IMG/VR virus record: IMGVR_UViG_3300042731_003521
Coordinates: 1-29,417 of that record
Strand: one strand, 5' to 3'
Origin: a virus
DNA length: 29,417 bases
The notes beneath the pieces are model-generated. The model had not been told where the DNA came from and made no database searches. It was given only the letters and a program-made list of their open reading frames with translations. Below, in pieces: positions 3,660-26,648 of this stretch. Within the stretch, counting starts at the first letter, position 1; each line of letters opens with the position of its first letter. Made by a program: the position numbers and the translations under genes.

Positions 3660-3666
3660 ATTACTC

Positions 3667-11322: not shown

Positions 11323-11880
11323 TACCACTGCTCCCTTCATTTATTGCTTCTGCTTGTCTTTCATACCGCTTTCTTATAAGTTCGACAAACAGAAGCAATT
11401 GGGGAATAGAGTACTTCTTTACATCGCTAAAGGTGTGACCTTCACTAATGAGCAGTTCGATGCTAGAGGCAATTACTTCGGAGAAGCTAGACTCTTCACC
11501 TTTTCGACTGCGCTGCTCTGATCTTGTGCTTCTCCTACTTCTTTCATTTTTTCGATCAGAGCCATCCACTTTCCCAACACGTTCTCATTGATATTCTGGG
11601 ATATTACTATCTCCAAAATATCAGGAACATCACTAGCGGGAATGTACTTCGCGGGAATGTTTATGCAGTAAGGGATTATCTTTAATACTTCGCCTAGTGC
11701 TTTAGAAGCAATCTCAGAAGGTGGGTCGCCAGCCTCGGCATGTCGCATCAGTACACCGAAACTATCTGCTACTTTGGGAAGGTTTTCTAGCGAGAGAGGT
11801 TTCACTTCCACCTTGACATTACTACCTGAAAGTGAAACCTCCCTTATTGGGAAAAGTATTTCTAGTTCTTTAATGTCCAT
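11222..11880 (-). CDS. Tail assembly chaperone GT fusion by -1 frameshift
   Basis: Ribosomes slipping back one base at 11569-11575 leave the gpG frame after residue 104 and continue in an open frame to 11222, giving about 219 residues. The new frame starts VDGSDRKNERSRR, a basic linker, then SSFSEVIASSIELLISEGH and VKKYSIPQLLLFVELIRKRYE, the helical T domain that typically follows the frameshift in lambda-like tails and recruits the tail tube protein. The shift site and the new frame's first codon coincide exactly, which is strong evidence. The T frame overlaps the tape measure start (11322) by about 100 bases, more than usual, so its last 33 residues share DNA with the ruler. GT amount would be a small fraction of G. 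Confidence 0.85.
11473..11880 (-). CDS. Tail assembly chaperone (gpG-like)
   Basis: A 135-residue protein between tail tube and tape measure genes, the position of lambda gpG. It starts at ATG 11880 after GGGGG and TTTT. The N-terminal two thirds is a compact alpha/beta segment (PIREVSLSGSNVKVEVKPLSLENLPKVADSF in pieces, residues 11-41), a pattern shared by many gpG-type chaperones that bind the tape measure during tail assembly. Near residue 103 the reading frame contains G GGA AAG, identical to the lambda slippery heptamer, so part of the ribosomes should shift to the -1 frame and make the longer GT protein. The leader before the gene can fold into a three-way junction (11889-11941), which may modulate its translation. 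Confidence 0.88.
   Translation of the reverse strand: MDIKELEILFPIREVSLSGSNVKVEVKPLSLENLPKVADSFGVLMRHAEAGDPPSEIASKALGEVLKIIPYCINIPAKYIPASDVPDILEIVISQNINENVLGKWMALIEKMKEVGEAQDQSSAVEKVKSLASPK
11569..11575 (-). promoter_or_regulatory. Programmed -1 frameshift site GGGAAAG
   Basis: On the coding strand the heptamer is G GGA AAG in the gpG frame (Leu-Gly-Lys codons). This is the same sequence as the lambda G/T slippery site. In the -1 frame the next codon, GTG, opens the T reading frame without a stop. No alternative slippery heptamer was found between here and the gpG stop at 11473: GAA AAA ATG and GAA AAG GTG do not fit the X XXY YYZ rule. Confidence 0.88.
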
Positions 11881-11888
11881 AAAACCCC

Positions 11889-11941
11889 CGTTATGAGTGT
11901 TCTACCCGAAAGTAGCACTCAGTTAACGCAAGTTAATAACG
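11889..11941 (-). promoter_or_regulatory. Possible three-way-junction leader of the tail chaperone gene
   Basis: In the 75-base gap between tail tube stop and gpG start the RNA can form an outer stem CGTTAT/ATAACG (11941-11936 with 11894-11889). Inside it are a small hairpin TAAC-TTGC-GTTA and a longer one GAGTG-CTAC with GTAG-AA-CACTC. The ribosome site GGGG follows the outer stem at once. All pairs are Watson-Crick. It may tune or couple gpG translation to the tail tube gene. No known riboswitch or ribozyme motif was recognised, and the fold was found by eye only. Confidence 0.5.
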
Positions 11942-11955
11942 ATGTCACTGAAGTA

Positions 11956-12495
11956 CTACGCGGTCGTAGTGGTCGTAGTCGCAAATGTCACTGTAAAATA
12001 TGGAGAAGTCGGATTGTTGGCAGTATCCGCGAGTCCTTCACCAGTAATACTCATCAAAGACCATTCATCGGAGATCAAATTCAGTGAACCACCGGGAGTC
12101 AATTTGCAACGGTGAAATTCCCAAGTCTCGTTGGGACCGGCAGGGTTATCGGAGACAAACTTAACGGAGTACTCCTTGTCTAGTTGAGTATTAGCAGAGA
12201 TCACATTTCCACTAACACTACCTTTGAGATACATCGTCAAGTTCTGCACCGAAAACTCATCAAGATCGAAGTTCAGGTTGTACCCTGTTTCGAGAACTAC
12301 TTTCTTGTCTTTCGTTCTAGTTCCAGACCGGGAAGAGTAATGATCCAAAGTCTCCTCGGTCACTTCACACTCAAACCTCGGAGAGTTACCTACATCATTG
12401 AGCGAACCGGGAGGTGAAGTTCCACTCCATTCAGCGAGAGAAACTACTCCACGGCCCAAGGTATAAAGGGTAGTACTTGGATTACTAGCAGGCAT
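11956..12495 (-). CDS. Major tail tube protein
   Basis: A 179-residue protein preceded by a strong AAAGGAGG site, placed between the tail terminator gene and the chaperone gene, which is the tail tube position. It is beta-rich, with EWSGTSPPGSLNDVGNSPRFECEVTEE (in pieces, residues 22-48) leading to a DKKVVLETGYNLNFDLDEFS strand pair and a central VSGNVISANTQLDKEYSVKF segment, similar in pattern to tube proteins of siphophages. It ends with six Thr codons and Ala (TTTTTTA). The capsid protein has the same type of end, and the DNA word ACGACCACTAC occurs at both. The product should be one of the most abundant virion proteins. Assignment rests on order and composition as well as family likeness. 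Confidence 0.88.
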   Translation of the reverse strand: MPASNPSTTLYTLGRGVVSLAEWSGTSPPGSLNDVGNSPRFECEVTEETLDHYSSRSGTRTKDKKVVLETGYNLNFDLDEFSVQNLTMYLKGSVSGNVISANTQLDKEYSVKFVSDNPAGPNETWEFHRCKLTPGGSLNLISDEWSLMSITGEGLADTANNPTSPYFTVTFATTTTTTA

Positions 12496-12509
12496 CTGTT
12501 AATCCTCCT

Positions 12510-12974
12510 TTACAATGCGTTAAAGTCTTCTATGTAACGGATAGTTAATACTTGTCCGATTCCAACTACGTTATTTCCTATTGGGGGTCGGTATACTCTA
12601 CTGACTTCACTCTCTTCCAATAAGTTGCACAATCTACTTAGAGTAATACCGTCTTCAAATAATACTTTCCTGTTATACTTCAAAAAGGCAGTAATGTCTT
12701 TGGAAGTCATGCCTTTAGAGGTAGAAGCATACCAGCTCTCTAATACTATTTTAAACTCCTTCGTGTATATTGGAGGTTGTGATGCTCCACGGTTTTTCGT
12801 AGACTCCAAAGTAATTTCGGGAAACTCAAACAGGTTAACACAAGGCATTGCTTCTACTACTGGTTCGTCCTCTGGATTCTGGAAGACATACTTCATGTCG
12901 AAAGTATAGCCATTAGCGATCTTGATCGTGTTGATTCTACGCATTACTTCTGAGACTATACTATCTCTTTTCAC
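12510..12974 (-). CDS. Tail terminator-like protein
   Basis: A 154-residue protein that starts at GTG 12974, overlapping the stop of the HK97 gp10-like gene by four bases (GTGA). An alternative ATG is not nearby. N-terminal helix RDSIVSEVMRRINTIK is followed by EAMPCVNLFEFPEITLE and a central TKEFKIVLESWY strand, ending RPPIGNNVVGIGQVLTIRYI. This alpha/beta arrangement fits tail terminator or tail completion proteins, which cap the tail tube and join it to the head. The position between the gp10-like gene and the tail tube gene fits that role. The family resemblance is by pattern only. Confidence 0.8.
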   Translation of the reverse strand: MKRDSIVSEVMRRINTIKIANGYTFDMKYVFQNPEDEPVVEAMPCVNLFEFPEITLESTKNRGASQPPIYTKEFKIVLESWYASTSKGMTSKDITAFLKYNRKVLFEDGITLSRLCNLLEESEVSRVYRPPIGNNVVGIGQVLTIRYIEDFNAL

Positions 12975-13393
12975 CGAAGGCTCTCTCCCTTTACTACTCG
13001 GTTAATCAATCGTACTGCTGCTTCTTGAACCACTCTATCGGCATCTGCCTTGACTGATATTCCCTCTGGTGCCTGAGAGGAGTAAATTCTTCCATGATTA
13101 AAAACCGTTCTACTTCTTGGGTTGGGCCACGGTCTCTCCCCTGCTTGCGATCCATGCTCTAGAAACCACGATTGGATTGTAGGGTTCCCAAAAGAATATC
13201 CCTTCTCTACTTTCCTAACCGGAGTCCACGATCTTTTAGTAGTTCCTGCCCCGGCTCTGTTACCCACCGGAGTTGCTGCAACTACTTCCTTTCGCAGTCT
13301 TGCTGCAACACTTCTCACTACTTTACTTACTTGACCGGGAGTTAGTTTCGGCAAGTCTTTGATGCCACTTAGGTCTACGTTAAATTCAAGCAT
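12971..13393 (-). CDS. HK97 gp10-like head-tail joining protein
   Basis: A 140-residue protein of the HK97 gp10-like family, a neck or tail completion protein. Typical marks are the N-terminal helix with VVRSVAARLRKEVVAATPV (residues 26-44), the TPVGN..GAGTTKRSW stretch near 41-56 and the SW.LEHGSQAGERPWP..RS segment near 80-94. It overlaps the 3' end of the preceding gene by eight bases. Order in this cluster (DnaT-like connector, stopper-type protein, gp10-like, terminator, tube) is the usual head-to-tail order, which supports the call. Confidence 0.88.
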   Translation of the reverse strand: MLEFNVDLSGIKDLPKLTPGQVSKVVRSVAARLRKEVVAATPVGNRAGAGTTKRSWTPVRKVEKGYSFGNPTIQSWFLEHGSQAGERPWPNPRSRTVFNHGRIYSSQAPEGISVKADADRVVQEAAVRLINRVVKGESLR

Positions 13394-13796
13394 ATCCCTT
13401 CACTTCCACTTTTACTATCAAACCAAAAACAGGATATATTTTCTTCACGGAATACTTCATACCATTTGACTCTACTATCGTGTCTCTTATACTTGCTTCT
13501 GTAGGCACATCGCCAAATTTAAACAAGTATACCGTATCGCCTGAACCTACTCCAAATTGACTTGCAAGACTTCCGGTGTTATTACCACCGAATTTACTAG
13601 CTCCAATTTCCTTCTCTACTCGTATAGCACTGATACCTGTATGATCGGTGTATGTGTCTTCATTTACTCCCAACGACTCATTGAACACAGAATCTTTAAA
13701 TACTTTCCAAGTGACTATTGTAGTCAGGTCTGGATCATTGTATAGCGTTGGTAGTATAGAATTAACCGAATTTTTTATTTGGGAGAATAGACTCAT
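13386..13796 (-). CDS. Head-tail stopper-like protein
   Basis: A 136-residue protein starting at ATG 13796 within ATGA shared with the stop of the previous gene and with GGAG seven bases upstream. An in-frame ATG at 13826 lies deep in that gene and has no ribosome site. The protein is beta-rich: VTWKVFKDSVFNESLGVNED, then a long loop, then DTVYLFKFGDVPTEASIRDTI and MKYSVKKIYPVFGLIVKVEV. The pattern (a small beta barrel with a DTI..NG..Y.V..I turn) is common in head-closure stopper proteins. Position fits. No catalytic motif. Confidence 0.78.
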   Translation of the reverse strand: MSLFSQIKNSVNSILPTLYNDPDLTTIVTWKVFKDSVFNESLGVNEDTYTDHTGISAIRVEKEIGASKFGGNNTGSLASQFGVGSGDTVYLFKFGDVPTEASIRDTIVESNGMKYSVKKIYPVFGLIVKVEVKGYA

Positions 13797-14362
13797 ATTG
13801 CTGCTCCGCTGAATCTCCTGTACCATCTGCCTAGGTAGGCATATACTATGTCCAGAGAAGACAACTTCGCTTTGTTGACTTGACTACTCTCGGAAGAGTC
13901 TGGAAAAAATTCTATGCCTAGACTTCCACCTAGTTCAAACATTTTTATTTCTTTCTCGGAAAAGGCAAGTGAGTCTAGCGTCATAATGTAAGTAATTACT
14001 TGGTATGCAATTTCGATCTGAGAATACTTTACTTCTGCCGGGATAGTGGGTGCAGTTCCTTCGATGTCGGAATACTCTAGTATATAGTCTTCGTCTTCTA
14101 CTATATACTCGTAGTTGTCTTCAGTCCTCCACCATCGGGGAAACTCTAGCCTCTGGTTCCGACTAGCTTTTACTCCCCGCCACGGAAAGGTATTCATTAG
14201 CAGTGCAGCGATTTTTAATCTCTGCTCTTTCGGAGCCTCGTCTAGATCACTCCAATTGGTAGACAAATTATCTCCGTATACTGCTTCGAGATATTCATCT
14301 GCCTCTGCAACCGTGACGTAACTATCCCCACTATTGCTCCCAACAGTAGTATCAAGGGCCAT
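13793..14362 (-). CDS. DnaT-like head-tail connector
   Basis: A 189-residue protein with the start pattern GSNSGDSYVTVAEADEYLEAVYG (in pieces, residues 8-30), WRG.KASRNQRLEFPRWW near 62-78 and a long helix VKYSQIEIAYQVITYIM near 113-129. This is the signature of the family often labelled DnaT-like ssDNA-binding protein in databases, which in phages is a head-tail connector (adaptor) rather than a replication protein. It starts behind AAGGAG and follows the capsid gene by 21 bases, the expected position of an adaptor. Confidence 0.85.
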   Translation of the reverse strand: MALDTTVGSNSGDSYVTVAEADEYLEAVYGDNLSTNWSDLDEAPKEQRLKIAALLMNTFPWRGVKASRNQRLEFPRWWRTEDNYEYIVEDEDYILEYSDIEGTAPTIPAEVKYSQIEIAYQVITYIMTLDSLAFSEKEIKMFELGGSLGIEFFPDSSESSQVNKAKLSSLDIVYAYLGRWYRRFSGAAI

Positions 14363-14383
14363 ATTACTTCTCCTTCACTACTA

Positions 14384-15337
14384 TTACACAGAAGTAGTAG
14401 TGGTCGTGGAGGGCAGACCGGAATCGGTGAAACCTTCTACTGCGATACAGGCTTGCGGTTCTTCAACCTTGATGTCGCAACGCATGGTCAGAACGATGAT
14501 AAGTACTCTACGCCTGATGTCCTTGTCAGTCTCAATCATAATGTCTCGCTGAATACCCCAAATGATATTCTTCGGGTAGGAGAGCCACAACTTATGATCG
14601 GGCATCATTGCTGCTGGTCGGACAGGTGTACCGTAGGCGAACATGGGAGTATACTTGCTGATTTTCTCGTCACCAAGAGAAGTAGCGCGGTCAGCAATAC
14701 TATCCCTGTACTCCATCTCTACATGCGGAGAGACGTAGTAGTTCATCATGGAACGGTTGCGAAGATATCTAGTCGGCATGTGCTGGATGGCAGTTTTGAA
14801 CAGGTCTTTGTCGATGTCCGTGATACTACTACCGTCGATTGTATTAGCAGTAGGAGTCAAAGACAAAATACCATCGCACAGGGCAAGGTAGTCATCGGAA
14901 GAGCCGGTGTCGCCAAGCACCATAAGTTCTTCCAAGTCAAGTGCTGCTCTCTCCGCGATCATGGACATAATGGTTTGCTCTAGTCCACCGCGTTCGATAT
15001 TGTCTTCAAGCACATCGTAGGGGAGCCATACTTCTGCAATGATCTCTTCTGTTTCCAGTTCGATCATGCCAAGATCAGGCCGCGCACGTTTGGTAGCGTC
15101 GAGAGCAGTACCACTGGAAGGTGCTGCGCGAAGTATTCTACTCCCGAAACCGATCTTTTCGATCTTCCGTTTCGGTGCGCTCATTCGTACTACCCGGCAC
15201 TCATTGATGAGTGTAGGCTGGTCGATAATCATACGGATAAAAGCATTTGCTTGCTCGGGATTCAAGTAACCACCGGAACTCACAAGGTTACTTACTGCAA
15301 TATCAGCCTTCTCCACAATTGAACGATTGTCTTTCAT
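14384..15337 (-). CDS. Major capsid protein
   Basis: A 317-residue protein with the strongest ribosome site in the window (AAGGAGG, ten bases before ATG 15337). Its sequence shows the course of an HK97-fold capsid: an N-terminal helical part with SSGGYLNPEQANAFIRMI (residues 20-37), acidic EETEE-like E-loop zone (IELETEEIIAEVWLPYDVLEDN, in pieces 92-113), P-domain helix AERAALDLEELMVLGD (128-143) and the C-terminal A-domain strand with Y..P....W...RD. It ends in STTTTTSV. It follows a protease and a scaffold-like gene and precedes the connector, the standard order. Mass near 35 kDa. No separate decoration protein is seen. Confidence 0.9.
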   Translation of the reverse strand: MKDNRSIVEKADIAVSNLVSSGGYLNPEQANAFIRMIIDQPTLINECRVVRMSAPKRKIEKIGFGSRILRAAPSSGTALDATKRARPDLGMIELETEEIIAEVWLPYDVLEDNIERGGLEQTIMSMIAERAALDLEELMVLGDTGSSDDYLALCDGILSLTPTANTIDGSSITDIDKDLFKTAIQHMPTRYLRNRSMMNYYVSPHVEMEYRDSIADRATSLGDEKISKYTPMFAYGTPVRPAAMMPDHKLWLSYPKNIIWGIQRDIMIETDKDIRRRVLIIVLTMRCDIKVEEPQACIAVEGFTDSGLPSTTTTTSV

Positions 15338-15402
15338 TGCTTAATTTCCTCCTTGATCTAGTGTAGAAAGTACTTGTATAATTATAAAATCAAACAGTGG
15401 GA
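15338..15402 (-). promoter_or_regulatory. AT-rich capsid gene leader with strong ribosome site
   Basis: The 65-base gap before the capsid gene is AT-rich and holds a TATAAT and a TATACA word on the coding strand but no convincing -35 box 16-18 bases upstream, so a promoter is uncertain. The AAGGAGG ribosome site is at 15348-15354. No terminator hairpin was found. The leader may simply raise translation of the abundant capsid protein. Confidence 0.4.
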
Positions 15403-16407
15403 CTAGTTAGACCGAAAAAGTACTCCTTGAAAAAGTTTCTCTTCTTTCGGAGTGTCCACCTCTTCTTCCTTCTCCGTTTTACTGCTGACCGTAGCAGTCT
15501 TCAGATCGTCAATCTCTTTCTTCATTTCATCGGTTTGATCTTTGACTTGCTTCTCTACTTTGCCCAGAGTCTCAATCAGCTTGTCTCCAAAATTGGAAAG
15601 AGCAGTATTGAAAGCACCGCTAAGATTCTGCACCAGATCGTCCATGCTAAAAGGAGTATTCCCCGTAGAAGCATTGTCGTCAGTCTCTTCTTTATCGGTC
15701 TCTGGTTCTTTGTCTTCGGGTTCCTTCGGTTCGGTCTTCTCTTCTTTCTCTTTCTTCTCTTCCTGAACCAAAGGATAGACTAAAGTCGGGTGATTTTCAG
15801 GATTGATAAAAGCGTCTGCTTTTTCTCCTGACAGGTTATTCAATACTACCTCTGCAAATGATCGAAAATTGTCGATGGCCGTCAGGATAGTACTTTTCCG
15901 AAAGTCAACTCCTGCGGTCTCCTGCCGCATGGCCCCACCTACTACATCTGCCATTGCATACAGTTCGGTGTAGAGATTGTCCAGAGTCGCATAGTCAACT
16001 GCTTCTTTTGCTTCTACTACCAAAGTACCTTGCTCGGATTCTCCTTCTTTCAGCGTACCCAAAACAACATAGACGCCATCAATGTCCTCATGCTTTACTA
16101 CAGAAAGATTCTCTTCGCAACGATCCGCAGGGAGTTGAGGATAGGAAGTATACGTGTTGTACTTCTTCGCTTCTTTCCTACTCATTCCCTCTAGTGCTTT
16201 GGCAGTCTCGTCTTTCGGCAAACTGTTCTTGACCAAAATAGACTGCACCACTTTTTTCATGCCAGATTCCTCCTTTTCTTCTTTGAGGACTTTGAAGGGA
16301 GTTCTATTCGCACCGTACTTCACTAGCGATACAAACTCGACTGTCGGATCAGTCATAAAAACTACTTCGTCCTCGATGGTTGTGGTAATCGTTTTTACTT
16401 TCGACAT
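15403..16407 (-). CDS. Scaffold-like protein with XkdF-associated N-terminal domain
   Basis: A 334-residue protein between the protease and capsid genes, a scaffold position. Residues 20-42 (VEFVSLVKYGANRTPFKVLK) carry the SLV..GANR.PFKV pattern that is found in XkdF-type prohead proteins or just after the protease domain. Residues 45-215 form a mixed alpha/beta part with SYPQLPADRCEENL (87-100). The rest is a low-complexity acidic, Glu/Lys/Thr-rich region (about 225-260) and then a coiled coil (SNFGDKLIETLGKVEKQVKDQ). Such an unfolded acidic and helical C-terminus is typical of capsid scaffolds. In some phages this and the protease are one chain, so a split protease/scaffold is likely. Starts at ATG 16407 behind GGAG. 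Confidence 0.78.
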   Translation of the reverse strand: MSKVKTITTTIEDEVVFMTDPTVEFVSLVKYGANRTPFKVLKEEKEESGMKKVVQSILVKNSLPKDETAKALEGMSRKEAKKYNTYTSYPQLPADRCEENLSVVKHEDIDGVYVVLGTLKEGESEQGTLVVEAKEAVDYATLDNLYTELYAMADVVGGAMRQETAGVDFRKSTILTAIDNFRSFAEVVLNNLSGEKADAFINPENHPTLVYPLVQEEKKEKEEKTEPKEPEDKEPETDKEETDDNASTGNTPFSMDDLVQNLSGAFNTALSNFGDKLIETLGKVEKQVKDQTDEMKKEIDDLKTATVSSKTEKEEEVDTPKEEKLFQGVLFRSN

Positions 16408-16410
16408 TGT

Positions 16411-17037
16411 TTACTCCAATACTAGTCTGTGGCGATGATCCAACTCTTCTTCCGTTGCAGTGCCGTGAACTATCGGGTGGAAGTGCTCAAATACTACATC
16501 TGTTTTCCCTGATACTATCCCTCCTTCGCTATTGAAGTTGATTATGAACGTGTGTTCATGTGTAGGGAGTGGACCATCCTTTTCGCTCTTCTCGGTAACT
16601 CCTGCGACTTGCTTCGACACTTCCACTAGTACTCTAGCCGGGACTTTCTTAGTAGACCCATAAAAAGAAAATCCGTTCAGTTCGCCTGACTTAACGGATT
16701 CCCATATTTCAGGAGTACACTTTACTCCCATCACCCATGCGTCCTCTACAAAAGGTTCCCACCCTGCTCTAGCAACAAAACTCTCTACTACCTGACAACC
16801 GGACTCCTTTAGATCGTGCTGCACATCAATCTTGAATACTTTTCCACTAGCAAGAAAATTATGTGCTGCCTTCTCTACGTCTTCCTTTGTCATAGTCTCA
16901 TGGTCAGTATCTATCCGGTATGGGATATATACTTCTGCATAAACTATGCGCTGCTCTTCTTTTGTAGTTTCTTTTTTAATACTGAAGTAGAGTTGATTTT
17001 CTTTGGCTTTCTCGGAAGTTACTAGTTCGATAGGCAT
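16411..17037 (-). CDS. XkdF-type prohead protease
   Basis: A 208-residue protein similar to the phage serine protease XkdF family (peptidase S78-like), which processes the prohead. The typical elements are RIVYAEVYIPYRIDTDHETMT (in pieces, residues 30-50), EDVEKAAHNFLASG (52-65), DVQHD with H74, CQVVESFVARAGW (81-93), W.MGVKCTPEIWESVKSGELNGFSF with S124. H74 and S124 are the likely catalytic pair; I cannot point to the third residue. The chain ends with a His-rich segment (PTHEHTF, FEHFHPI, HRHRL). It starts behind GGAGAG at ATG 17037 and is the first clear head gene in this transcription unit. Confidence 0.9.
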   Translation of the reverse strand: MPIELVTSEKAKENQLYFSIKKETTKEEQRIVYAEVYIPYRIDTDHETMTKEDVEKAAHNFLASGKVFKIDVQHDLKESGCQVVESFVARAGWEPFVEDAWVMGVKCTPEIWESVKSGELNGFSFYGSTKKVPARVLVEVSKQVAGVTEKSEKDGPLPTHEHTFIINFNSEGGIVSGKTDVVFEHFHPIVHGTATEEELDHRHRLVLE

Positions 17038-17072
17038 ACTACTCTCCTGTGCAAGTAACAGTTATAGAGAGT

Positions 17073-17101
17073 AGTATATATAAGGTGAGATTGGTTTACA
17101 A
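17073..17101 (-). promoter_or_regulatory. Possible late promoter before the protease gene
   Basis: On the coding strand TTGTAA (17101-17096) and TATACT (17078-17073) are separated by 17 bases. The -10 box matches five of six bases and the -35 only four, so it is moderate. A transcript from about 17066 would have a 29-base leader to the protease start. It would let the structural genes be transcribed separately from the HTH gene just upstream. Confidence 0.4.
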
Positions 17102-17109
17102 TATAAATT

Positions 17110-17355
17110 CTAGTTCTTCAAAAATTTTAGTCTCTCTAAGCACTCCTTTGAATTGCAATGATTGAAGTAGTTCTCTAATTCCTTCGCATAAACTCTTTTG
17201 TCTTTTGTGACCGTGATCTCCCCTCGACCCACTTTTTTATAAAAAGTATTTCTACTGCAATCAAGGATTTTTATAGTTTCTTTAATACTATAGGTGGGTT
17301 TGTAGGGTAAGCCGACACTCGGAAGTACAACGTCTTTGAAGTAATTGGATTCCAA
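17110..17355 (-). CDS. Small helix-turn-helix DNA-binding protein
   Basis: An 81-residue protein that starts at TTG 17355-17353 with GAGGGG six bases upstream (no in-frame ATG is near). Residues 21-68 (YSIKETIKILDCSRNTFYKKV then GEITVTKDKRVYAKELENYF) have the layout of MerR/excisionase-type helix-turn-helix domains: a helix ending in ILD-CS, the recognition helix RNTFYKKV and a wing with a KRVYAK strand. It lies between two promoters at the start of the structural genes and may regulate them, or bind DNA for replication or packaging. It is monocistronic with its own promoter P2 (17422-17450). Confidence 0.75.
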   Translation of the reverse strand: MESNYFKDVVLPSVGLPYKPTYSIKETIKILDCSRNTFYKKVGRGEITVTKDKRVYAKELENYFNHCNSKECLERLKFLKN

Positions 17356-17421
17356 TTTTACCCCTCATAAAAACTTTCTGTTGCTAGTAAAATTATTTTT
17401 TCAATTTGTCACTTTTGTACT

Positions 17422-17450
17422 AGTCTAACAAACAGGATTTTACTTGTCAA
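17422..17450 (-). promoter_or_regulatory. Promoter P2 for the HTH gene and head genes
   Basis: TTGACA (17450-17445) and TAGACT (17427-17422) are separated by exactly 17 bases on the coding strand. The -35 box is perfect and overlaps the terminator tail. A transcript would start near 17415 and reach the TTG of the HTH gene after about 60 bases. The upstream flank is shared with P1 (TTGACAAGT then A-rich). Confidence 0.75.
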
Positions 17451-17451
17451 C

Positions 17452-17496
17452 AAAAAATAAGGGAGACAAAGGCCGGGGAACCTTTACCTCCCTTAT
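17452..17496 (-). terminator. Rho-independent terminator
   Basis: On the coding strand ATAAGGGAG, GT, AAAGG pair with CCTTT, GT, CTCCCTTAT around an 8-base loop, followed by TTTTTT. The stem is interrupted by a symmetric GT/GT pair of wobble or mismatched bases. It ends transcripts from the helicase operon and from promoter P1. Confidence 0.9.
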
Positions 17497-17547
17497 ACTG
17501 GGGAAAGAATGGAGATATACCGTCAACACCTCACAGGGGGAGTTGAT
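17452..17547 (-). ncRNA. Candidate 96-base small RNA or attenuated leader
   Basis: A transcript beginning near A17547 from promoter P1 and ending at the terminator T-run would be about 96 bases and has no credible open frame. Its 5' end can form a hairpin (TCAAC with GTTGA around C/G-rich pairing, 17546-17522). It then has a single-stranded, pyrimidine-rich centre (UAUAUCUCCAUUCUUUCCCC) and ends in the terminator stem. This is the architecture of a trans-acting small RNA; the CUCC of the centre could pair with ribosome sites. It could equally be a leader that allows read-through (antitermination) into the HTH and head genes. Nothing in the sequence decides between the two. Confidence 0.5.
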
Positions 17548-17550
17548 GGA

Positions 17551-17566
17551 ATAATAGTACTATTAT
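17551..17566. promoter_or_regulatory. 16-bp perfect palindrome over the P1 -10 box
   Basis: ATAATAGT followed by ACTATTAT is an exact 16-base inverted repeat covering the P1 -10 element. A dimeric repressor or activator would fit such a site; the nearby helix-turn-helix gene (17110-17355) is one candidate. Being AT-rich with the word AGTACT at its centre, it could also arise by chance in this AGTA-rich genome. Confidence 0.45.
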
Positions 17567-17582
17567 ATTTTTCACTTGTCAA
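17554..17582 (-). promoter_or_regulatory. Promoter P1, between helicase gene and terminator
   Basis: TTGACA (17582-17577) and TACTAT (17559-17554) are 17 bases apart on the coding strand. The -10 box lies inside a 16-base perfect palindrome (17551-17566), a likely operator. The only DNA that its transcript would cover before the terminator is the 96-base candidate RNA. Confidence 0.75.
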
Positions 17583-17594
17583 GCATTTTTATCA

Positions 17595-18914
17595 TCATAT
17601 CACCGCCACTGGTTCGTAGTCAATAGGTCTCTCGCGCTCTAGTTCTTGCTCGGTCATATCGTCAGGGTCCATTCTACCTGATATTACTTTTATCTGCTCA
17701 ATGGTAGTACGTCTCATATTGTACTCCACTTTGATTGAACCTGATTCTCCGTCTCTTCCTTTGGTCAGTCGTAGTATTCTATACTGCACTTCATTTTGAC
17801 TGCCTATGTCTTCCTTGCGCTCATACTCAAAAGAGAATACTACCGACGCGATCTGCGGTATGGCAAACCCACCGCCGACACCCTCTAGTTTGCCTGTCTC
17901 TTTTTTGGTGTACTGATAAGTAGCAATGATCGGGAAGTCTTCATTCAATGCCAAGTTTTTAAGCATTGATGCTACTTCCATGTTTCTCTCCCACCATGAC
18001 GCTCTCCCCGTTGTCTGTAAGAGGTATGCCCCATCTACTATCAGTAAATCTGGTTTCATTTCCTTTGCTACTATTACAACGTCTTCTACCTTTGGAAACA
18101 TACCGCCGGGGAGCAGATAAAAATACTTCCCACTGGATTCTTTAAATGTTGCTCCATCATCTATCAACTGTATCGCTCGGTCTCTAGCCCACGGAGACAT
18201 TCTCCCCATCTTCATATCGGTAGTAGAGAATCTCCCTTCCATAGCTAAGGCTCTACGTGCTGCTTGTAAGTTCGGCATTTCAGTAGAAAGTACTAGCACA
18301 TTTTTATTGTCTGCGTGTGCAGCTAATCCTATGCGAAGCGCTAGATATGTCTTGCCAACTCCTGTTTGCCCAACTACTACAACGTAGTCGCCGGATTGTG
18401 CTCCACCCGATACGGTATCTATAAAAGGAAAACCAAAAGGTATGCCGGGAATATCAGGAGACCTTTGAAGTAAATCATGCTTCTCTATTACTTCTCTCTG
18501 GACTTCTCTCAGGTCAACCATTCGCTTAGTAGAGTAACTCTCACGAAGGGCTAAATAACTACTTCCTATGACATCAATTGCTCCCTCTACTCTTCCTGAC
18601 TCCAAGTGCTCCCTCACTCGGGCCATGCCTTCTCTTATGTCCTTATATCGTTTTCTCTCCTTTACTTCCTCTACCCAGTATGCTACAGGCTCATCGGTCA
18701 GTCCATCAAAAGTTAACTGATCTCCCAAGTGTCGGGCAACAGTTTCAACTCTAGGGTATGTGCCATAGTCTAGTATGAACTCCCTTATAAAAGAATAAGC
18801 ATTTACTTCGTTATCTATAAAGTAATCGGGGGTTATACCTTCGTCGGAAAGAGTTGAAAAGTTTACTTCTGATGTTATCAATGAGCGTAGTAGTCCGAAT
18901 CCTACGCTAGCCAA
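17595..18914 (-). CDS. DnaB-like replicative helicase
   Basis: A 439-residue replicative helicase of the DnaB/RecA-fold group. The N-terminal region (about 28-120) has the DnaB N-domain type NEVNAYSFIREFILDYGTYP; a short linker follows, then the motor domain: Walker A GQTGVGKT (182-189), STEMPNLQAARRALA (210-224) as motif 1a, Walker B LLIVDGAYLL (290-299), ATYQYTKK (motif 3) and RLTKGRDGESGS as motif 4. It uses TTG 18914-18912 behind AAGGAG; the preceding gene overlaps the start by a few bases. It should unwind the phage replication fork. It is followed by a regulatory block and not by other replication genes. Its location between terminase and capsid genes is unusual. Confidence 0.92.
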   Translation of the reverse strand: MASVGFGLLRSLITSEVNFSTLSDEGITPDYFIDNEVNAYSFIREFILDYGTYPRVETVARHLGDQLTFDGLTDEPVAYWVEEVKERKRYKDIREGMARVREHLESGRVEGAIDVIGSSYLALRESYSTKRMVDLREVQREVIEKHDLLQRSPDIPGIPFGFPFIDTVSGGAQSGDYVVVVGQTGVGKTYLALRIGLAAHADNKNVLVLSTEMPNLQAARRALAMEGRFSTTDMKMGRMSPWARDRAIQLIDDGATFKESSGKYFYLLPGGMFPKVEDVVIVAKEMKPDLLIVDGAYLLQTTGRASWWERNMEVASMLKNLALNEDFPIIATYQYTKKETGKLEGVGGGFAIPQIASVVFSFEYERKEDIGSQNEVQYRILRLTKGRDGESGSIKVEYNMRRTTIEQIKVISGRMDPDDMTEQELERERPIDYEPVAVI

Positions 18915-19296
18915 TATCCTTATCTCCTTCTAGTGCTTTTTTGATTTCTTCTATAATGTCCGACAAATAACCTCGTGTCGCTTGTGATTGGTCTTTCAGC
19001 AAAGTTCTCTCTAGTAAATCCAAGAATAGTACTTCAAACTTCCTAAGCTCGCTTTCTCTTCCAGAATAAGCTAGCTTCATAATTAGCATACAGACATCAT
19101 TGAACTTAACTACTAGCTCCTCTTTTATACGGAGAAACTCTTGGTCTATCTGCCCCTCAAAGTACTCTGGGTCCGTGAAGTAATTAGATTTTCTTACTTC
19201 ACTTTTTATCTCTTCACTATGCCTCTTGAGATACTGATTGACGTAGTACTCCATTATTGCTTTTTGTACTTCGTTTTCGTTTGGTTCGTTTCCCAT
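18907..19296 (-). CDS. Small helical protein upstream of helicase
   Basis: A protein of 129 residues if it begins at ATG 19296, the best start because GGGGG lies upstream; an in-frame ATG at 19368 would add 24 residues but has no ribosome site. It overlaps the end of the previous gene by about 80 bases and the helicase start by eight. Entirely alpha-helical, charged: KAIMEYYVNQYLKRHSEEIKSEVRK (in pieces) and EFLRIKEELVVKFNDVCMLIMKLAYSGRESELRKFEVLF. It may assist helicase loading or replication from its position. I recognise no family. Confidence 0.72.
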   Translation of the reverse strand: MGNEPNENEVQKAIMEYYVNQYLKRHSEEIKSEVRKSNYFTDPEYFEGQIDQEFLRIKEELVVKFNDVCMLIMKLAYSGRESELRKFEVLFLDLLERTLLKDQSQATRGYLSDIIEEIKKALEGDKDIG

Positions 19297-19927
19297 CTGA
19301 TTTACTACCCCCAGTGTCTTTGCTGCGAATAATGACATGCTTTGAAGTAGGTCCAGTAAACAACTCATGCACTGACTCCCCGAAACTATCTGTCAGTCGC
19401 ATGATAGTATTTATTCTTGCCTCTTCTGTAAGTGGTTCGGGAATACTTCCTACGAATAGATCAACCATCGTGGAAAGTCTTCTCTGCTTTCTTCGATGGA
19501 ATATAGTAGCTATTGCTCCCCTCTTGAACTTCAACTGCGGATTGTGCGGATCGCAATAGCATACCATCAGCAACTCTGCGTATTCGATAATATCTCGCAA
19601 CTCTCCATTAGGATTGTCTACTGCTTGTATAAGATCGTCTACGTCTACGATAATCGCTCTCTCGGTGGTAGTAAAGATGTAGCTAGCCATAACATACGAA
19701 AATAGACTTCGCATATAGATAGTAGAATCACAAACACATACGATCCAATTGCGGCTTTTCAGAGAGTACTCCACTAGTTTTGCTATCCTATTAATTGACT
19801 TCTCACTAGTCGGCTCTCTGTATACATCTGATCGTAGGTCGCAACCTCTCAACGAGAGGTATCCAACTGACCACTTCCATTTGTCAGAAGACAAATTTAC
19901 TTCCCACGGAAGAACTACATTAATCAT
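19217..19927 (-). CDS. Degenerate ATPase, possible helicase loader
   Basis: A 236-residue protein just before the helicase genes. The layout is that of a DnaC/IstB-type P-loop protein without an intact Walker A: the strand WIVCVCDSTIYMRSLFSYVMASYIF (in pieces, about 60-84) occupies the Walker A position but has no GKT/S; then AIIVDVDDLI, a Walker-B-like strand LLMVCYCD near 117-124, and RRLSTMVDLFVGS near 147-159, similar to sensor strands of helicase loaders. The C-terminus is a basic, disordered tail (SKSDGKRTKRKRS). It starts one base after the preceding stop. I infer a loader-type role from order and shape; ATP use is doubtful. Confidence 0.7.
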   Translation of the reverse strand: MINVVLPWEVNLSSDKWKWSVGYLSLRGCDLRSDVYREPTSEKSINRIAKLVEYSLKSRNWIVCVCDSTIYMRSLFSYVMASYIFTTTERAIIVDVDDLIQAVDNPNGELRDIIEYAELLMVCYCDPHNPQLKFKRGAIATIFHRRKQRRLSTMVDLFVGSIPEPLTEEARINTIMRLTDSFGESVHELFTGPTSKHVIIRSKDTGGSKSDGKRTKRKRSTKSNNGVLRQSVSQEA

Positions 19928-19928
19928 T

Positions 19929-20099
19929 TTAATTTTCCTGTTTAAATATTACTCCCTCGAAAACATCTTTCTTAGCCTGTTCCCACATACTACTACATAT
20001 TGCAACTGCTTGGTCTTGTTCTCTTCCTTCCTCTATTAATACAGGCACACACCTTTTCATCCACTCTGATCTGCTCTCGGTGGTATTGGGTTTCGGCAT
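19929..20099 (-). CDS. Small phage protein with RC...EGREQDQAVAIC motif
   Basis: A 56-residue protein starting at ATG 20099-20097 with GGGAG overlapping the end of the preceding gene. It contains SEWMKRCVPVLIEEGREQDQ and AVAICSSMW (residues 11-40), a motif I recognise from many phages: R-C-...-EG..QDQAVAIC-S-W, usually found at the N-terminus of prohead or minor head proteins or as a free-standing small protein. It has two cysteines (C17, C35) that could bind metal. Here it stands alone, between a membrane protein and the ATPase, away from the head genes. The function is unknown. Confidence 0.75.
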   Translation of the reverse strand: MPKPNTTESRSEWMKRCVPVLIEEGREQDQAVAICSSMWEQAKKDVFEGVIFKQEN

Positions 20100-20100
20100 T

Positions 20101-20589
20101 TTACTTCTCCCTTATTTTTCTAATCGTAGGAGTTTTAATTTTTCTTAAATCATCTCGTACTACCTTTCCGTCACGTATAACTATCACTCTCGGCGGTTGA
20201 TCTGCACTAGATGGGAGATATGTACTAGTGGTGCTGACATAATCAACAGTAGAAGACACTGGCAGACCGGGACTCCTCTCTGTAGTAAAGCTCATTTCTC
20301 CAAGTTCTATCTCTGATCCGTTTCTGCCTATTGCTATATTACTTCTTATGCCTCGACACCTACCGACTCTCCTACGAACTGCTTGTATTTCTTTAACATA
20401 CTCGTAGTACTCCCAAGCAGGTAAAAAAGACAAGATTACCCCAAGTATAATTAGAATACTTAACTTGTCGGGGAAGTGAATAATCCAAACGCTCTCTAGC
20501 AGTATAACCGTAAATATGTATTTTGGTTTTAATCTCTTCCCTCTAGTATACCTATAGAAACTAATTAATTTTCTGGCAACTTGGCCCAT
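20101..20589 (-). CDS. Putative membrane protein, two membrane segments
   Basis: A 162-residue protein with an N-terminal basic region (RKLISFYRYTRGKRLKPKY) and two hydrophobic segments at about 25-40 (IFTVILLESVWIIHF) and 42-60 (KLSILIILGVILSFLPAWEYY). The remainder is soluble and ends in a Lys/Arg-rich tail. The N-terminal charge suggests an N-in arrangement. It overlaps the previous small gene by 25 bases; no strong ribosome site is seen before ATG 20589, so translation may be coupled. I do not recognise a family; it could be a superinfection-exclusion or membrane-anchoring protein. Confidence 0.6.
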   Translation of the reverse strand: MGQVARKLISFYRYTRGKRLKPKYIFTVILLESVWIIHFPDKLSILIILGVILSFLPAWEYYEYVKEIQAVRRRVGRCRGIRSNIAIGRNGSEIELGEMSFTTERSPGLPVSSTVDYVSTTSTYLPSSADQPPRVIVIRDGKVVRDDLRKIKTPTIRKIREK

Positions 20590-20735
20590 TTTTCACGAAG
20601 AAATTTTATTGCTTCATCCATTTCCTCTTCTTCTACTACCGGATCGTCTGCAAATGCTTTACCGGCAACAGCTAGGCCTAGTACTATTTCGATAGATCGT
20701 TTCAGCGTCATTTTCTTCTTTATCTTTACTGCCAT
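20565..20735 (-). CDS. Small acidic/hydrophobic hypothetical protein
   Basis: A 56-residue protein starting at ATG 20735 with GGGGAG eight bases upstream; a more upstream ATG (20750) lies inside the previous gene and is less likely. Residues 1-13 are basic (MAVKIKKKMTLKR), followed by a hydrophobic stretch IEIVLGLAVAGKAFA and an acidic end (VVEEEEMDEAIKFLREKW). The shape could be a short membrane-associated or signal-like peptide, but this is uncertain. I do not recognise a family. It overlaps both neighbours slightly. Confidence 0.55.
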   Translation of the reverse strand: MAVKIKKKMTLKRSIEIVLGLAVAGKAFADDPVVEEEEMDEAIKFLREKWAKLPEN

Positions 20736-20736
20736 G

Positions 20737-21282
20737 CTAATACTCCCCACTCAGAAGGTCTTCCATTTGTTTCTCATACTCTCTTTGTAAATCTTCTTCA
20801 CTAGGCCCGAACTTCTTACGTCTGCTGGATGCTACTACTCTCTCTTGCTCTCGTTCCAATGGTTTGCAGTCTACTCTGCATTTTATGGATTCGATAGCAT
20901 TAAGTATACTATCCCTTGCGATCATAAACTCCATAAGACTCGGACGATCGCCTAGCATTACTTTCTTGCCATTCAAAGAATAATGATCTTTACGCTTGAT
21001 CTCTCCCCAAAGCCTTACTAGGTCGATAATCAAGTCGTAAAACTTCTTCTCTTCCCATCCATTATTCCTGCCTAACTTAATAAACCCAAGAAGCATATTC
21101 TCTACTTTCTTAGATAATGGATGCGGTTCTCCGTACCCATTGCTTCTAAACTCATTATAGAAAAGCCTCTTGAGTTTACTAGGTGAGGCAGGAGTAATAA
21201 AAAACACATCGTTTCTTTTACTCCTGCTTTTGTTGGATACCATCAATCCTTTTTTGATTGCTTCAAGTGTACTCGGTTTCAT
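20737..21282 (-). CDS. Hypothetical helical protein
   Basis: A 181-residue mostly helical and basic protein with no recognised motif. It contains a KKVENMLLGFIKLGRNNGWEEKKFYDLI helical stretch (in pieces, about 58-86) and a C-terminal acidic coiled coil (EEDLQREYEKQMEDLL). It overlaps the previous gene by four bases (ATGA) and ends one base before the next. The helix-rich, charged composition would fit a DNA-binding or replication accessory protein, but there is no evidence beyond its neighbours. Confidence 0.7.
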   Translation of the reverse strand: MKPSTLEAIKKGLMVSNKSRSKRNDVFFITPASPSKLKRLFYNEFRSNGYGEPHPLSKKVENMLLGFIKLGRNNGWEEKKFYDLIIDLVRLWGEIKRKDHYSLNGKKVMLGDRPSLMEFMIARDSILNAIESIKCRVDCKPLEREQERVVASSRRKKFGPSEEDLQREYEKQMEDLLSGEY

Positions 21283-21539
21283 GCTATTTGAAGAGTCTCT
21301 TGCAAGTAGTTATGTTCCCAATCCAATGCTTCTTCTCTAGTGTCAAAATCCAATGGTGATGTCTCCCCACTAGACAGGAATTTTACTTTCCACTTTTTCA
21401 CTTTATTACAGAAGTAAACATCGGACGCTCGGTTCACTTCAAACTCGCCTAGTGAATCGTCCATCTGCCTGAGAGTGTCATTGTATATGTGAATGAACTT
21501 CTTGCCGTCTTTACTTACTAACAGTTTATAGCTTTTCAT
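21279..21539 (-). CDS. Hypothetical small protein
   Basis: An 86-residue protein of alternating strands and helices (SYKLLVSKDGKKFIHIYN, DVYFCNKVKKWKVKFL, then a Glu-rich C-terminal helix REEALDWEHNYLQETL). It overlaps the upstream DUF2997-like gene by four bases and the downstream gene by four bases. No family was recognised. The closely packed arrangement suggests a single cotranscribed unit. Confidence 0.68.
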   Translation of the reverse strand: MKSYKLLVSKDGKKFIHIYNDTLRQMDDSLGEFEVNRASDVYFCNKVKKWKVKFLSSGETSPLDFDTREEALDWEHNYLQETLQIA

Positions 21540-21727
21540 AACTCCTCGCTATTGTTAATGGGGTTCTCTTCCCAATACTCGGGAGTAAATCCCCCCTCTA
21601 CGGTGCCGGTGTAAAGAGCATCCTCTAGTCCTCTGGTCAGGCTAGTACAACCAGACCCTTTGACTCCCTCTACGACTAGCTTTACTTCTGACCCATCATA
21701 TTTAATGTTTACTTTTATCGTTTTCAT
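21536..21727 (-). CDS. DUF2997-like small protein
   Basis: A 63-residue protein with the pattern M-T-I-V-I-G...V...GVKGSGC..L...LE.AL, close to the DUF2997 family: strand MKTIKVNIKYDG, then VEGVKGSGCTSLTRGLEDAL (residues 19-38) with conserved C27. Members of this family are small proteins of unknown role that I recall as frequent neighbours of DUF1257 proteins. Exactly that arrangement is present: the DUF1257-like gene is directly upstream. The C-terminal 20 residues are divergent (YTGTVEGGFTPEYW). Confidence 0.72.
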   Translation of the reverse strand: MKTIKVNIKYDGSEVKLVVEGVKGSGCTSLTRGLEDALYTGTVEGGFTPEYWEENPINNSEEL

Positions 21728-21737
21728 CGCTCTCCCT

Positions 21738-22112
21738 TTAGTATACTTGAATGGTTAGCTCGACGTTTCCCACTTGGTCTACTGCCTGAGAAGCAATTAC
21801 TCCACCAAGCATAGCCGCTTCTTGCTTTGCTTTCTCTACCATGTAATCTCTGCAAAGTAGGTTTCCGTCGGACCCAATCTTTTCTACTATCGGGTTGTTC
21901 CAGTTGTCCAGTACAATGCCGTAACCGTCTGCGGTCTTTACTACTCCCGCCTTACCCTCGTTGTAATCCAGAATAAACTCTACTTTTCGAGTACCGGCAA
22001 AGCTACTCTGTAAAGTAGTAGACTCCACTGTTTTAATCCCCTTCTCTTCTACTACTTTTTTAAACAACTCCAAGTCCTTGATTGATCCTCTTCCTGTAGT
22101 GTAATGACTCAT
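21738..22112 (-). CDS. DUF1257 (Ycf35-like) protein
   Basis: A 124-residue protein starting MSHYTTGRGSIKDLELFKKV, the classic N-terminal signature of DUF1257/Ycf35-like proteins (MSHFTT...IKD...L). It continues with SSFAGTRKVEFILDYNEGK, then KTADGYGIVLDNW and a C-terminal helix with YMVEKAKQEAAMLGG. The family is known mostly from cyanobacteria, plastids and bacteria next to DUF2997 and AAA proteins; the biochemical role is not established to my knowledge. Here the DUF2997-like gene follows after ten bases, so a two-gene cassette of the known type is present in the phage. Its role for the phage is unknown. Confidence 0.78.
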   Translation of the reverse strand: MSHYTTGRGSIKDLELFKKVVEEKGIKTVESTTLQSSFAGTRKVEFILDYNEGKAGVVKTADGYGIVLDNWNNPIVEKIGSDGNLLCRDYMVEKAKQEAAMLGGVIASQAVDQVGNVELTIQVY

Positions 22113-22134
22113 AATACTCTTCTCCTTTCCCTCG

Positions 22135-22656
22135 TTATTCGACCCTTAATTTACGAACTTTAGGTCTGCACATTACTTCCTCCGGTTTGGTTCTATCTGT
22201 TACCGTTACCATCTCTAGCAGTCTTCTTCGGGATATGAAAGACTGCCTAGAGTAAAACTTATAAGTATTAGAGTGCTTTCCGTACAATCTCTTAATCTCT
22301 TCTTCCACAAGGAATCTCCCAGTAGTAGAAAAAGAAAAATTAAGGTGCGGTATCTTCTTAAACCCCAAAGGCTTTATATCTAGTCTAGAACTCACTTCGG
22401 GACATACCAATACAAAATACGAAAAGTACTCCTTCGGTATTCCGAATCCTGATGTGCTTGTAAACAACTTCACTACTGGATAAGCTAGAGAATAACGATC
22501 TAATACCCCTCTGCGCTTCTCCGCTAACCCTCGTCTCAATGCTTCGTACAAGTGAAATTCTTCACCTTTTGAGTCGGTGACGTATAGGTGAAACTTGTAC
22601 TCCCCATTGTTGTACTTACTTGAGCCTCCTTTAAAATTTACTTCATAGTCGAACAT
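22135..22656 (-). CDS. Hypothetical protein
   Basis: A 173-residue basic protein of mixed strand and helix, starting at ATG 22656 inside the end of the preceding gene. Visible features are YKFHLYVTDSKGEEFHLYEALRRGLAEKRRG (in pieces, 21-50), SYFVLVCPEVSSRLDIKPLGFKKIP (79-103, in pieces) and a C-terminal Arg/Lys-rich tail (RSFISRRRLLEMVTVTDR). The tail could bind nucleic acid. I do not recognise a family. Confidence 0.68.
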   Translation of the reverse strand: MFDYEVNFKGGSSKYNNGEYKFHLYVTDSKGEEFHLYEALRRGLAEKRRGVLDRYSLAYPVVKLFTSTSGFGIPKEYFSYFVLVCPEVSSRLDIKPLGFKKIPHLNFSFSTTGRFLVEEEIKRLYGKHSNTYKFYSRQSFISRRRLLEMVTVTDRTKPEEVMCRPKVRKLRVE

Positions 22657-22904
22657 CTGCGCCTCTCTTTCTTGTCCTTGTCAACTGCTCGTTTTACTTC
22701 TTGAGATTGCCTCCTTCCGTAAGATTTCTCTTCTACTAGTATCAAATCTTTTCCTTGCTGCACGTAGAGTTTCCACGTTCGCATTGATATTAACAAATAG
22801 TACTCCCCACTTTTTAACCATACATCTGTCTTCTCTCTAGAAATACTCCACCCTCTTTTTCGGAGAGCGACTAGTAATAAGTTTCTAGATAGAGAGTCTA
22901 CCAT
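22638..22904 (-). CDS. Hypothetical basic protein, probably leaderless
   Basis: An 88-residue protein with a hydrophobic beginning (MVDSLSRNLLLVALRKRGWSISREK) and a strongly basic C-terminus (KSYGRRQSQEVKRAVDKDKKERRRC). The only plausible start is ATG 22904-22902, but the promoter -10 box ends at 22909, so transcription would begin at or within the ATG. There is no room for a ribosome site and no credible in-frame alternative for 40 codons. Therefore the transcript may be leaderless. Homology unknown. The gene could be a nucleic acid-binding protein. Confidence 0.65.
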   Translation of the reverse strand: MVDSLSRNLLLVALRKRGWSISREKTDVWLKSGEYYLLISMRTWKLYVQQGKDLILVEEKSYGRRQSQEVKRAVDKDKKERRRCSTMK

Positions 22905-22908
22905 TAGG

Positions 22909-22937
22909 GTTATAACCTATATAAAAATTTTTGTCAA
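22909..22937 (-). promoter_or_regulatory. Strong sigma70-like promoter for the small-gene/helicase operon
   Basis: TTGACA (22937-22932), 17-base spacer and TATAAC (22914-22909) on the coding strand. The flanks (TTAAAAAACTA before and AAAATTTTTATATAGG in the spacer) are nearly the same as those of the ligase promoter (28228-28256). It lies just after the terminase stop and drives the following genes down to the helicase. Confidence 0.8.
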
Positions 22938-22957
22938 TAGTTTTTTAATGACTACTC

Positions 22958-24976
22958 TTAGGAGTATAATGGTGATCTCCCGCTTGATGGCCTTCTAGTG
23001 GTAGCTCTACCTCCCTTACGAATAGGTATAGCTTTTGGTAGTATTTTAGGGGCGTACTTGAGACGATAACTGCTTTTCTTATTGCTTAAAGTATAAACAA
23101 CTCCTGCAACCGAATCTGCTAAATCTTTACTTCCCCCTTCGGGGTGGTCGATCTTTCCTGTTATATTGTCCTGATCTAAATTAGGAAACTCTTCTAGTAA
23201 AACATTATTTACTGCTATGTATACTCTCTCTTCTTTTATAGCAAACTTGGTTTCGATGTAAGGATCGGGACTTCTATCTAATGATAGAATACTGCTATTG
23301 ACCTGTCTACTTCTAAAATATTGTAAGAAAGTGGCCGATTGGTGCCTATCCATCGTAAGGTAGTAAATAGGCAAATACTCGCTAACTATTCCAACTAGCT
23401 CTCGCAAAGTGTTCAACTCTATCTCTCCACCGTCAGGAGGAAGTACTTGCAATGCGCCCGGTATTCCATAAATAGGTAATGCTCCCTTTGACTCTCTCCT
23501 AAGTTCTCCGGTGTCCTTATTGAATACCAATCGACTTGCAACTTCTTTACTTCCTATGGAATGACCAATTGCTACACCCGCAGCATCCCCACTTATTGCC
23601 AGATCAATATGTACTGCAAATGGCCCATGCGGAGATAATCTTCTCAGAAAGTCAATATTTATCAAGTCTTGAACTTCACTATTCACTGTAAGTACTACCG
23701 ACTGCTCATTAAATATCTGATCGTCTCCATAGATCGAAGTATACTTTGAGAACGCAAGTCGTATGTAATTCTTTTCAATAAATCTACTAGTCTTTGTTAC
23801 CGCGACTCCTGCAATATCTCTCAGTGATCCAATCAGGTCTCTATCAAATGCCGGTTTGTGTTCAATCGGTATTTGTATTAAGTTCTCCTCGTCTTCCTCT
23901 TCTACTACTTCTGGGCGATTGTCGTAAATGGCACCGGCAGAATTTTCACTAGGCTTTCTCACCCAAAACATTTTACCGCAGTACTTCTTCTTACTCAATG
24001 TTCCATCCTTATTTGTAAAGGATTCCCACTGAGCTAGATGCATAACAAATATATGCGGATTGTCTTCTGCTTCTTTCTCCTTGCGATCTATAAAATCGTC
24101 TTCATAGTTAGCAGAAGAGATTAAGTAAATCTTGCCGGGAAGTCTCCCAAGTCTATCGAACCGCGACTCCATACGTCTTAGGATGGTAGTATATAAAACT
24201 TCTGCCTGATCGTATTCCTGATCGACCGTGTTTGTTCTTCTCTTTGACTTCTTGACTTTAGACATGAAGTTCATTTCATCTATTACTGCTCCGAACACAT
24301 TCATACCTAGAGCCGATGTATCTGCACTACTGATAGGCATTACTTCGATGCCATGCGGAAACTTCATAACCTTCTTGAAAGAAGGGTCATGCCGAAATGT
24401 TCTAGGGAAGTATCCCGATGCATCTAGTCTCCCACCGAACTGATCGAAGACAACTTCTTTTGCAAGTCTCTCGGTCTTCGACTGATGGACGAAGATGATT
24501 TTACTACCTGGAGCCAACTCGTAGTGTGACTGAGGGGAGTACAGGCAAGAGAGCTTGTATAGGTCATAGGCTAGTGACATATCAGAGAAGTAGTTTTTGC
24601 CGATACCGATAGCTCCGCCAAGTACTGCTTCATAATAGTAATTATCTGGGGAGTGTAATTTGATCAGATGGTCTAGTATTAATGGTCGAACGTATGCTCC
24701 TTGGTTCATATACTCCGGTGATTCCACGAACTCTACTATATCCACCGGCTCTCGTATATAACCTGTTCTAGTTAGTTCAATTTGATGAGATATGATCCTG
24801 AGAGCATCCTCTTTGGGAATACTACTCCCGTAGAGCACTCTCAATCCCTCAAACTGCTCTAGCAATAATTCGATTACTTCTACTCCTAGTCCTGTTCTCT
24901 CCGCTACGTGTCTGAGGAAATGAACTAGTGCATCAAATGTCACGGTATTGTCTGGATTGGTGTGTAAATGTGTCAT
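22958..24976 (-). CDS. Terminase large subunit
   Basis: A 672-residue packaging motor. The ATPase domain carries Walker A GGAIGIGKN (120-128), adenine-binding Q-like residues upstream, Walker B AVIDE (230-234, catalytic E234) and coupling motif SSAN (287-290). The nuclease domain has acidic residues D458 in VHIDLAISGD, D543 in YLTMDRHQ and D618/D621 in GGSKDLADSV, the expected RNase H-like layout. It starts at ATG 24976; the ribosome site is poor. A 70-residue N-terminal extension with a helical DALVHFLRHVAERTG segment precedes the usual terminase body. The next downstream structural gene would normally be a portal, but a portal is not found. Confidence 0.93.
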   Translation of the reverse strand: MTHLHTNPDNTVTFDALVHFLRHVAERTGLGVEVIELLLEQFEGLRVLYGSSIPKEDALRIISHQIELTRTGYIREPVDIVEFVESPEYMNQGAYVRPLILDHLIKLHSPDNYYYEAVLGGAIGIGKNYFSDMSLAYDLYKLSCLYSPQSHYELAPGSKIIFVHQSKTERLAKEVVFDQFGGRLDASGYFPRTFRHDPSFKKVMKFPHGIEVMPISSADTSALGMNVFGAVIDEMNFMSKVKKSKRRTNTVDQEYDQAEVLYTTILRRMESRFDRLGRLPGKIYLISSANYEDDFIDRKEKEAEDNPHIFVMHLAQWESFTNKDGTLSKKKYCGKMFWVRKPSENSAGAIYDNRPEVVEEEDEENLIQIPIEHKPAFDRDLIGSLRDIAGVAVTKTSRFIEKNYIRLAFSKYTSIYGDDQIFNEQSVVLTVNSEVQDLINIDFLRRLSPHGPFAVHIDLAISGDAAGVAIGHSIGSKEVASRLVFNKDTGELRRESKGALPIYGIPGALQVLPPDGGEIELNTLRELVGIVSEYLPIYYLTMDRHQSATFLQYFRSRQVNSSILSLDRSPDPYIETKFAIKEERVYIAVNNVLLEEFPNLDQDNITGKIDHPEGGSKDLADSVAGVVYTLSNKKSSYRLKYAPKILPKAIPIRKGGRATTRRPSSGRSPLYS

Positions 24977-25008
24977 GCAAGTACTTTTACCACTAAGCCC
25001 TTATAAAG

Positions 25009-25815: not shown

Positions 25816-25826
25816 AGTTTTACTCC

Positions 25827-26012: not shown

Positions 26013-26015
26013 TTT

Positions 26016-26647: not shown

Positions 26648-26648
26648 G

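Follow-up and report, generated by a model that had tools for sequence, protein, structure and literature searches.

Unpaired C-rich motifs in small RNAs (sRNAs) are known to act as seeds for pairing with Shine-Dalgarno sequences, as in RNAIII and IsrR of Staphylococcus aureus (PMC2837412, PMC11448259). Among phages, sRNAs with functions include PreS, VpdS, 24B_1 and others (reviewed in PMC12197685). Phage sRNAs with a known role are nevertheless few, and the unit described here offers a clear, compact and conserved case in a clade of uncultured phages. On the sequence evidence it is a real and conserved candidate sRNA gene, to our knowledge undescribed, whose function we infer.

The candidate unit is located on the minus strand at positions 17582-17452 of an IMG/VR record of 29,417 bases, the whole of which is here called the window, and it sits at the border between the replication genes and the head genes of an uncultured phage. 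The gene directly upstream of its promoter P1 encodes a DnaB-like helicase (17595..18914, minus strand; phrog_19, E 6e-49; Pfam DnaB_C). Downstream of a second promoter, P2, lies a small helix-turn-helix (HTH) gene of 81 aa with a TTG start (17110..17355, minus strand), homologs of which occur in each of the five relatives. Of the gene assignments, those of the helicase (DnaB_C), the XkdF-type protease and the capsid are sound, and that of the HTH protein is plausible, its Pfam HTH_17 match (E 3e-5) falling just below the curated cutoff. Elsewhere in the window, two neighbouring frames at 2664-4482 (minus strand) match the tail-protein family phrog_1101 at positions 224-351 and 31-190, as if one long tail protein were split.

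A search with the major capsid protein retrieved L008, L010, L011, L012 and L013 at 85-89% identity, the range found within the clade, before identities fell to about 60%, and a search with the helicase retrieved a single relative, L001/L004, at 64%. The clade was taken as six distinct phages, namely W (the phage of the window), L004/L008, L010, L011, L012 and L013, with L004 and L008 counted as one as they carry an identical unit. All members of this close group retain the order helicase, intergenic unit, HTH gene, XkdF protease, scaffold and capsid, and in all six phages the intergenic part runs P1, RNA, terminator, P2. The helicases of the clade are only 52-80% identical and its four-fold degenerate sites 27-55% identical, which is near saturation; neutral sequence being close to saturated, a pattern conserved outside genes implies selection. 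In bacterial genomes, relatives of the major capsid protein were found only at 44-51% identity, with no close prophage that would point to the host.

P1 (17554..17582, minus strand) is a sigma-70-type promoter made up of TTGACA (17582-17577), a 17 bp spacer and TACTAT (17559-17554), and it matches the consensus at 10 of 12 positions. Its equivalents are present in all six phages, where TTGACA, a spacer of 17 or 18 bp and a TA-type -10 box come after the stop codon of the helicase gene. Just upstream of P1, within the end of the helicase gene, a further promoter-like sequence with a TG (TTGACT-18-TATGAT) occurs at 17594-17623 (minus strand). Judged from the -10 box of P1, the RNA would start near 17547, and in the six phages the predicted start falls about seven to ten bases past the -10 box; the 3' end would lie in the U tract of the terminator.

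The terminator hairpin (17457..17496, minus strand) is separated from the predicted start by 50 nt and comprises 18 pairs and a 4-base loop, CCCC, followed by TTTTTTG, with the U tract read from the sequence at 17452..17457 (minus strand). It ranks as the strongest terminator of the window, its stem being the longest terminator-like one in 10000-29417, and a hairpin with a U tract is present in all six units, with stems of about -20 to -26 kcal/mol. The stems are nearly unrelated in sequence among W/L004, L010/L011, L012 and L013, yet the pairing is retained: double changes, one or more per pair, occur at seven of the nine consensus pairs, and a comparison of W with L004 shows an A-U pair missing from both arms together. 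No other strong non-coding terminator was found in five of the six contigs. Two other structures of this kind were observed. A short non-coding gap of the window holds, at 28871-28940, a terminator-like perfect repeat (AGGGGAGTCAACTAGACTCCCCT) alongside another inverted repeat (ATAAGTATTCAAGTGAACTTGAGTTCTTAT), and in L001 a terminator-like hairpin with a T tract lies inside the protease gene at 3966-4002 (plus strand; also at 2234 in the reverse-complemented G001), where it appears to derive from the codons of a conserved protease motif (GELNGFSFYG).

P2 (17422..17450, minus strand) precedes the HTH/head operon and consists of TTGACA (17450-17445), TG (17430-17429) and TAGACT (17427-17422). 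The pattern TTGAC[A/T]-N14/15-TGN-[T/C]A begins directly behind the U tract in all six phages, and this conservation of P2 behind the terminator indicates that the head operon has its own promoter. Behind P2, at 17387-17405 (minus strand), is an AT-rich stretch, AAAAAATAATTTTAC. Similar words occupy the corresponding position in L010, L011 and L012, and the stretch is possibly an operator or an extra promoter element for the HTH/head operon.

P1 and the terminator together place a predicted non-coding RNA of about 96 nt at 17452..17547 (minus strand), with homologous units in L004/L008, L010, L011, L012 and L013. When the criteria were made strict, requiring a promoter that matches at 10 or more of 12 positions and a stem of 10 or more pairs situated 40-130 nt past the -10 box, the window contained one such unit, and none was found in 40 Markov-simulated genomes of equal dinucleotide make-up. 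The first-pass annotation had proposed here a promoter-terminator unit yielding a short RNA with no gene, and this is upheld by TTGACA-17-TACTAT, the length of about 96 nt and the 18-pair terminator, and by the fact that no conserved reading frame was apparent on reading the six RNAs. An antisense frame opposite the RNA centre (beginning ATGGAGATATACC) was also considered and was rejected as not conserved, the frames differing among W, L010 and L011. When folded, the 98-mer gave a z score of -3.2 against dinucleotide shuffles, the contribution coming almost wholly from the terminator. As to the layout proposed earlier for the RNA, the terminator stem and the unpaired C-rich centre were found as described, whereas the 5' hairpin (17546-17523; 5 bp plus 2 bp), a weak one, is private to this phage. 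A comparison with related phages, suggested at the same time, recovered the unit in six of six clade members and showed that the 5' hairpin is not conserved; in L013 a hairpin follows ACUCCC, and L012 is without a notable 5' hairpin.

Three C-rich modules can be distinguished in the predicted RNA. Module 1 (17536..17543, minus strand), near the 5' end, reads ACUCCCCC (ACUCCCUU in four relatives), and ACUCCC(UU) is found at the predicted 5' end in all six phages, broken in L004 as ACUCAGCCCC. Module 2 (17500..17514, minus strand) is the pyrimidine centre, CUCCAUUCUUUCCCC, which is predicted to be unpaired and is complementary to a ribosome site together with its start codon (GGGGAAAGAAUGG). Its CCAU-UUCUU-CCC pattern is retained in W, L004, L010 and L011 and altered in L012 and L013; the pyrimidine-rich centre of the six units reads CCAUUCUU-UCCC or similar and ends in UUCCC or similar. 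Module 3 is the terminator loop CCCC (17475..17478, minus strand), and C runs are present in the loops of all six units, as CCCC, CCCC, CC, CCC, CCCC and CCCCC. In total, 19 CCC runs (3, 3, 2, 4, 3 and 4 per RNA) versus a single GGG run (0, 0, 0, 0, 1 and 0) fall in unpaired regions of the six RNAs, whereas windows of equal length in the sense-strand background hold 0.16-0.30 CCC versus 0.34-0.55 GGG runs, CCC being the rarer. The observed CCC count is attained by about 0.01-4% of such windows, although the six units are homologous and their counts are hence not six independent trials. As the CCC signal is strand-specific, it points to an RNA and not to a DNA element. The conservation in six of six phages supports the earlier suggestion of an sRNA with a C-rich anti-Shine-Dalgarno centre.

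Leave-one-out profiles, each built from the other five units, recovered those of W, L010, L011, L012 and L013 modestly (E 0.005-0.5) and failed to recover that of L004, which was assigned on the strength of its location and a near-identical terminator. Beyond the clade, a profile search of the fetched loci, including the relatives of about 60% identity, revealed no unit, and a blastn search of 50,697 phage records likewise returned no match to it. No Rfam family matched at the gathering score, a relaxed threshold yielding only chance-level matches, and exact-pattern scans of IMG/VR gave, outside the clade, only GC-rich or coding chance matches.

Promoter, terminator, gene order and conserved modules were all observed directly, and in our judgement the unit is probably an autonomous gene for a phage regulatory sRNA that acts in trans via its C-rich anti-Shine-Dalgarno modules. 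The arrangement might instead be one of transcriptional punctuation only, in which transcription of the helicase operon stops at the terminator and starts afresh at P2 for the head operon, with the P1 RNA arising as a side product. The position of P2 immediately behind the terminator in all six phages is in line with this, as is a further terminator-then-promoter pair at 28344-28228 (minus strand) of the window, ahead of an ATP-dependent DNA ligase gene, where a 13-pair terminator (28344-28315) is followed by TTGACA-17-TACAAT (28256-28228), which at 11/12 is the highest-scoring promoter in 10000-29417. Punctuation, however, leaves unexplained both the retention of P1 and of the initial RNA bases (ACUCCC) across the six phages and the presence of strand-specific CCC runs, and we regard it as unlikely to be the whole account.

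Less probable still, and in our opinion quite improbable, is a regulated leader or attenuator, also put forward in the first-pass annotation, in which the 5' part would control read-through of the terminator and so turn on the HTH and head genes. Complementarity of the C-rich 5' part to GGGAG in the 5' arm of the terminator does exist in W, L004 (partly), L010 and L011, but CUCCC has no such complement in L012 and L013, and with pairing possible in only four of the six phages no attenuator switch is conserved. Furthermore, the terminator stems outweigh a competitor of 5-7 bp, and read-through is made unnecessary by P2, so that the leader is disfavoured. A replication primer or origin element, with the P1 RNA priming synthesis of phage DNA close to the helicase gene, is scarcely credible. 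The unit adjoins that gene and the AT-rich stretch lies behind P2, but along every contig the cumulative GC skew climbs without a switch at the unit, iterons were not seen in the intergenic sequence, and the conserved C-rich modules would be left unexplained.

If the unit is a trans-acting sRNA gene, host RNA polymerase with the housekeeping sigma factor would initiate at P1, and an RNA of about 80-97 nt would be made and would end at the intrinsic terminator. Ahead of the terminator this RNA would be mostly unpaired, with C-rich modules exposed at the 5' end, in the centre and in the terminator loop. The putative targets of these modules are host or early phage mRNAs, with whose G-rich Shine-Dalgarno (and AUG) regions they would most likely pair in trans, and such pairing would block ribosome binding, while P2 behind the terminator would drive the HTH/head operon separately. 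A role in the middle-to-late switch is possible. A more far-reaching proposal would make the three-module RNA a general silencer, with interchangeable terminator stems and C-containing loops, that represses translation broadly, among host or early phage mRNAs, when early expression gives way to late; in our view this is doubtful. The proposed mechanism of C-rich modules acting on ribosome sites is concrete and open to testing by point mutation.

Target prediction against phage ribosome sites, which had likewise been suggested, gave single strong duplexes and no clade-wide target. In W, the gene at 22112 formed a duplex of -37.7 kcal/mol, compared with -31.1 +/- 3.1 for the best of shuffled RNAs, and other single strong pairings were found with the protease start of L004 and with an 84-aa gene of G003 at 11505 (minus strand); the mean pairing with phage translation starts was only slightly better than that of shuffled RNAs. 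By ortholog group, no target was shared across the clade, the best group being strong in W and G003 and absent in G002. Shine-Dalgarno sequences of the GGGAG type are frequent in early genes of W and G003 only, and not in those of G002, L010 and L004. In L043 (G003), four early genes share the ribosome site AAGGGAG, the exact complement of CUCCCUU in its sRNA, a sharing that does not extend to the clade as a whole. The RNA may act chiefly on host mRNAs.

Compared with the phage sRNAs described so far, VpdS of Vibrio phage VP882 is also phage-encoded and acts in trans, affecting phage and host mRNAs (PMC12197685); it is about 50 nt long, linked to quorum sensing and carried by a temperate phage, and it has no known sequence or position in common with the candidate. 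PreS (LPR1) of phage lambda resembles the candidate in being phage-encoded and of similar size (∼88 nt), and acts in trans during infection (PMC12197685), but its gene is flanked by ea10 and ral, it depends on Hfq and its target is dnaN, and the locus and sequence of the candidate are unrelated to it. RNAIII and IsrR are bacterial genes, whereas the candidate belongs to a phage and has no sequence match to any Rfam family. What RNAIII, IsrR and their relatives share with it is the presence of several unpaired C-rich motifs per sRNA, which in RNAIII occur in hairpin loops as well, and if the RNA is made, the candidate would belong among the C-rich anti-Shine-Dalgarno sRNAs by its features rather than by homology.
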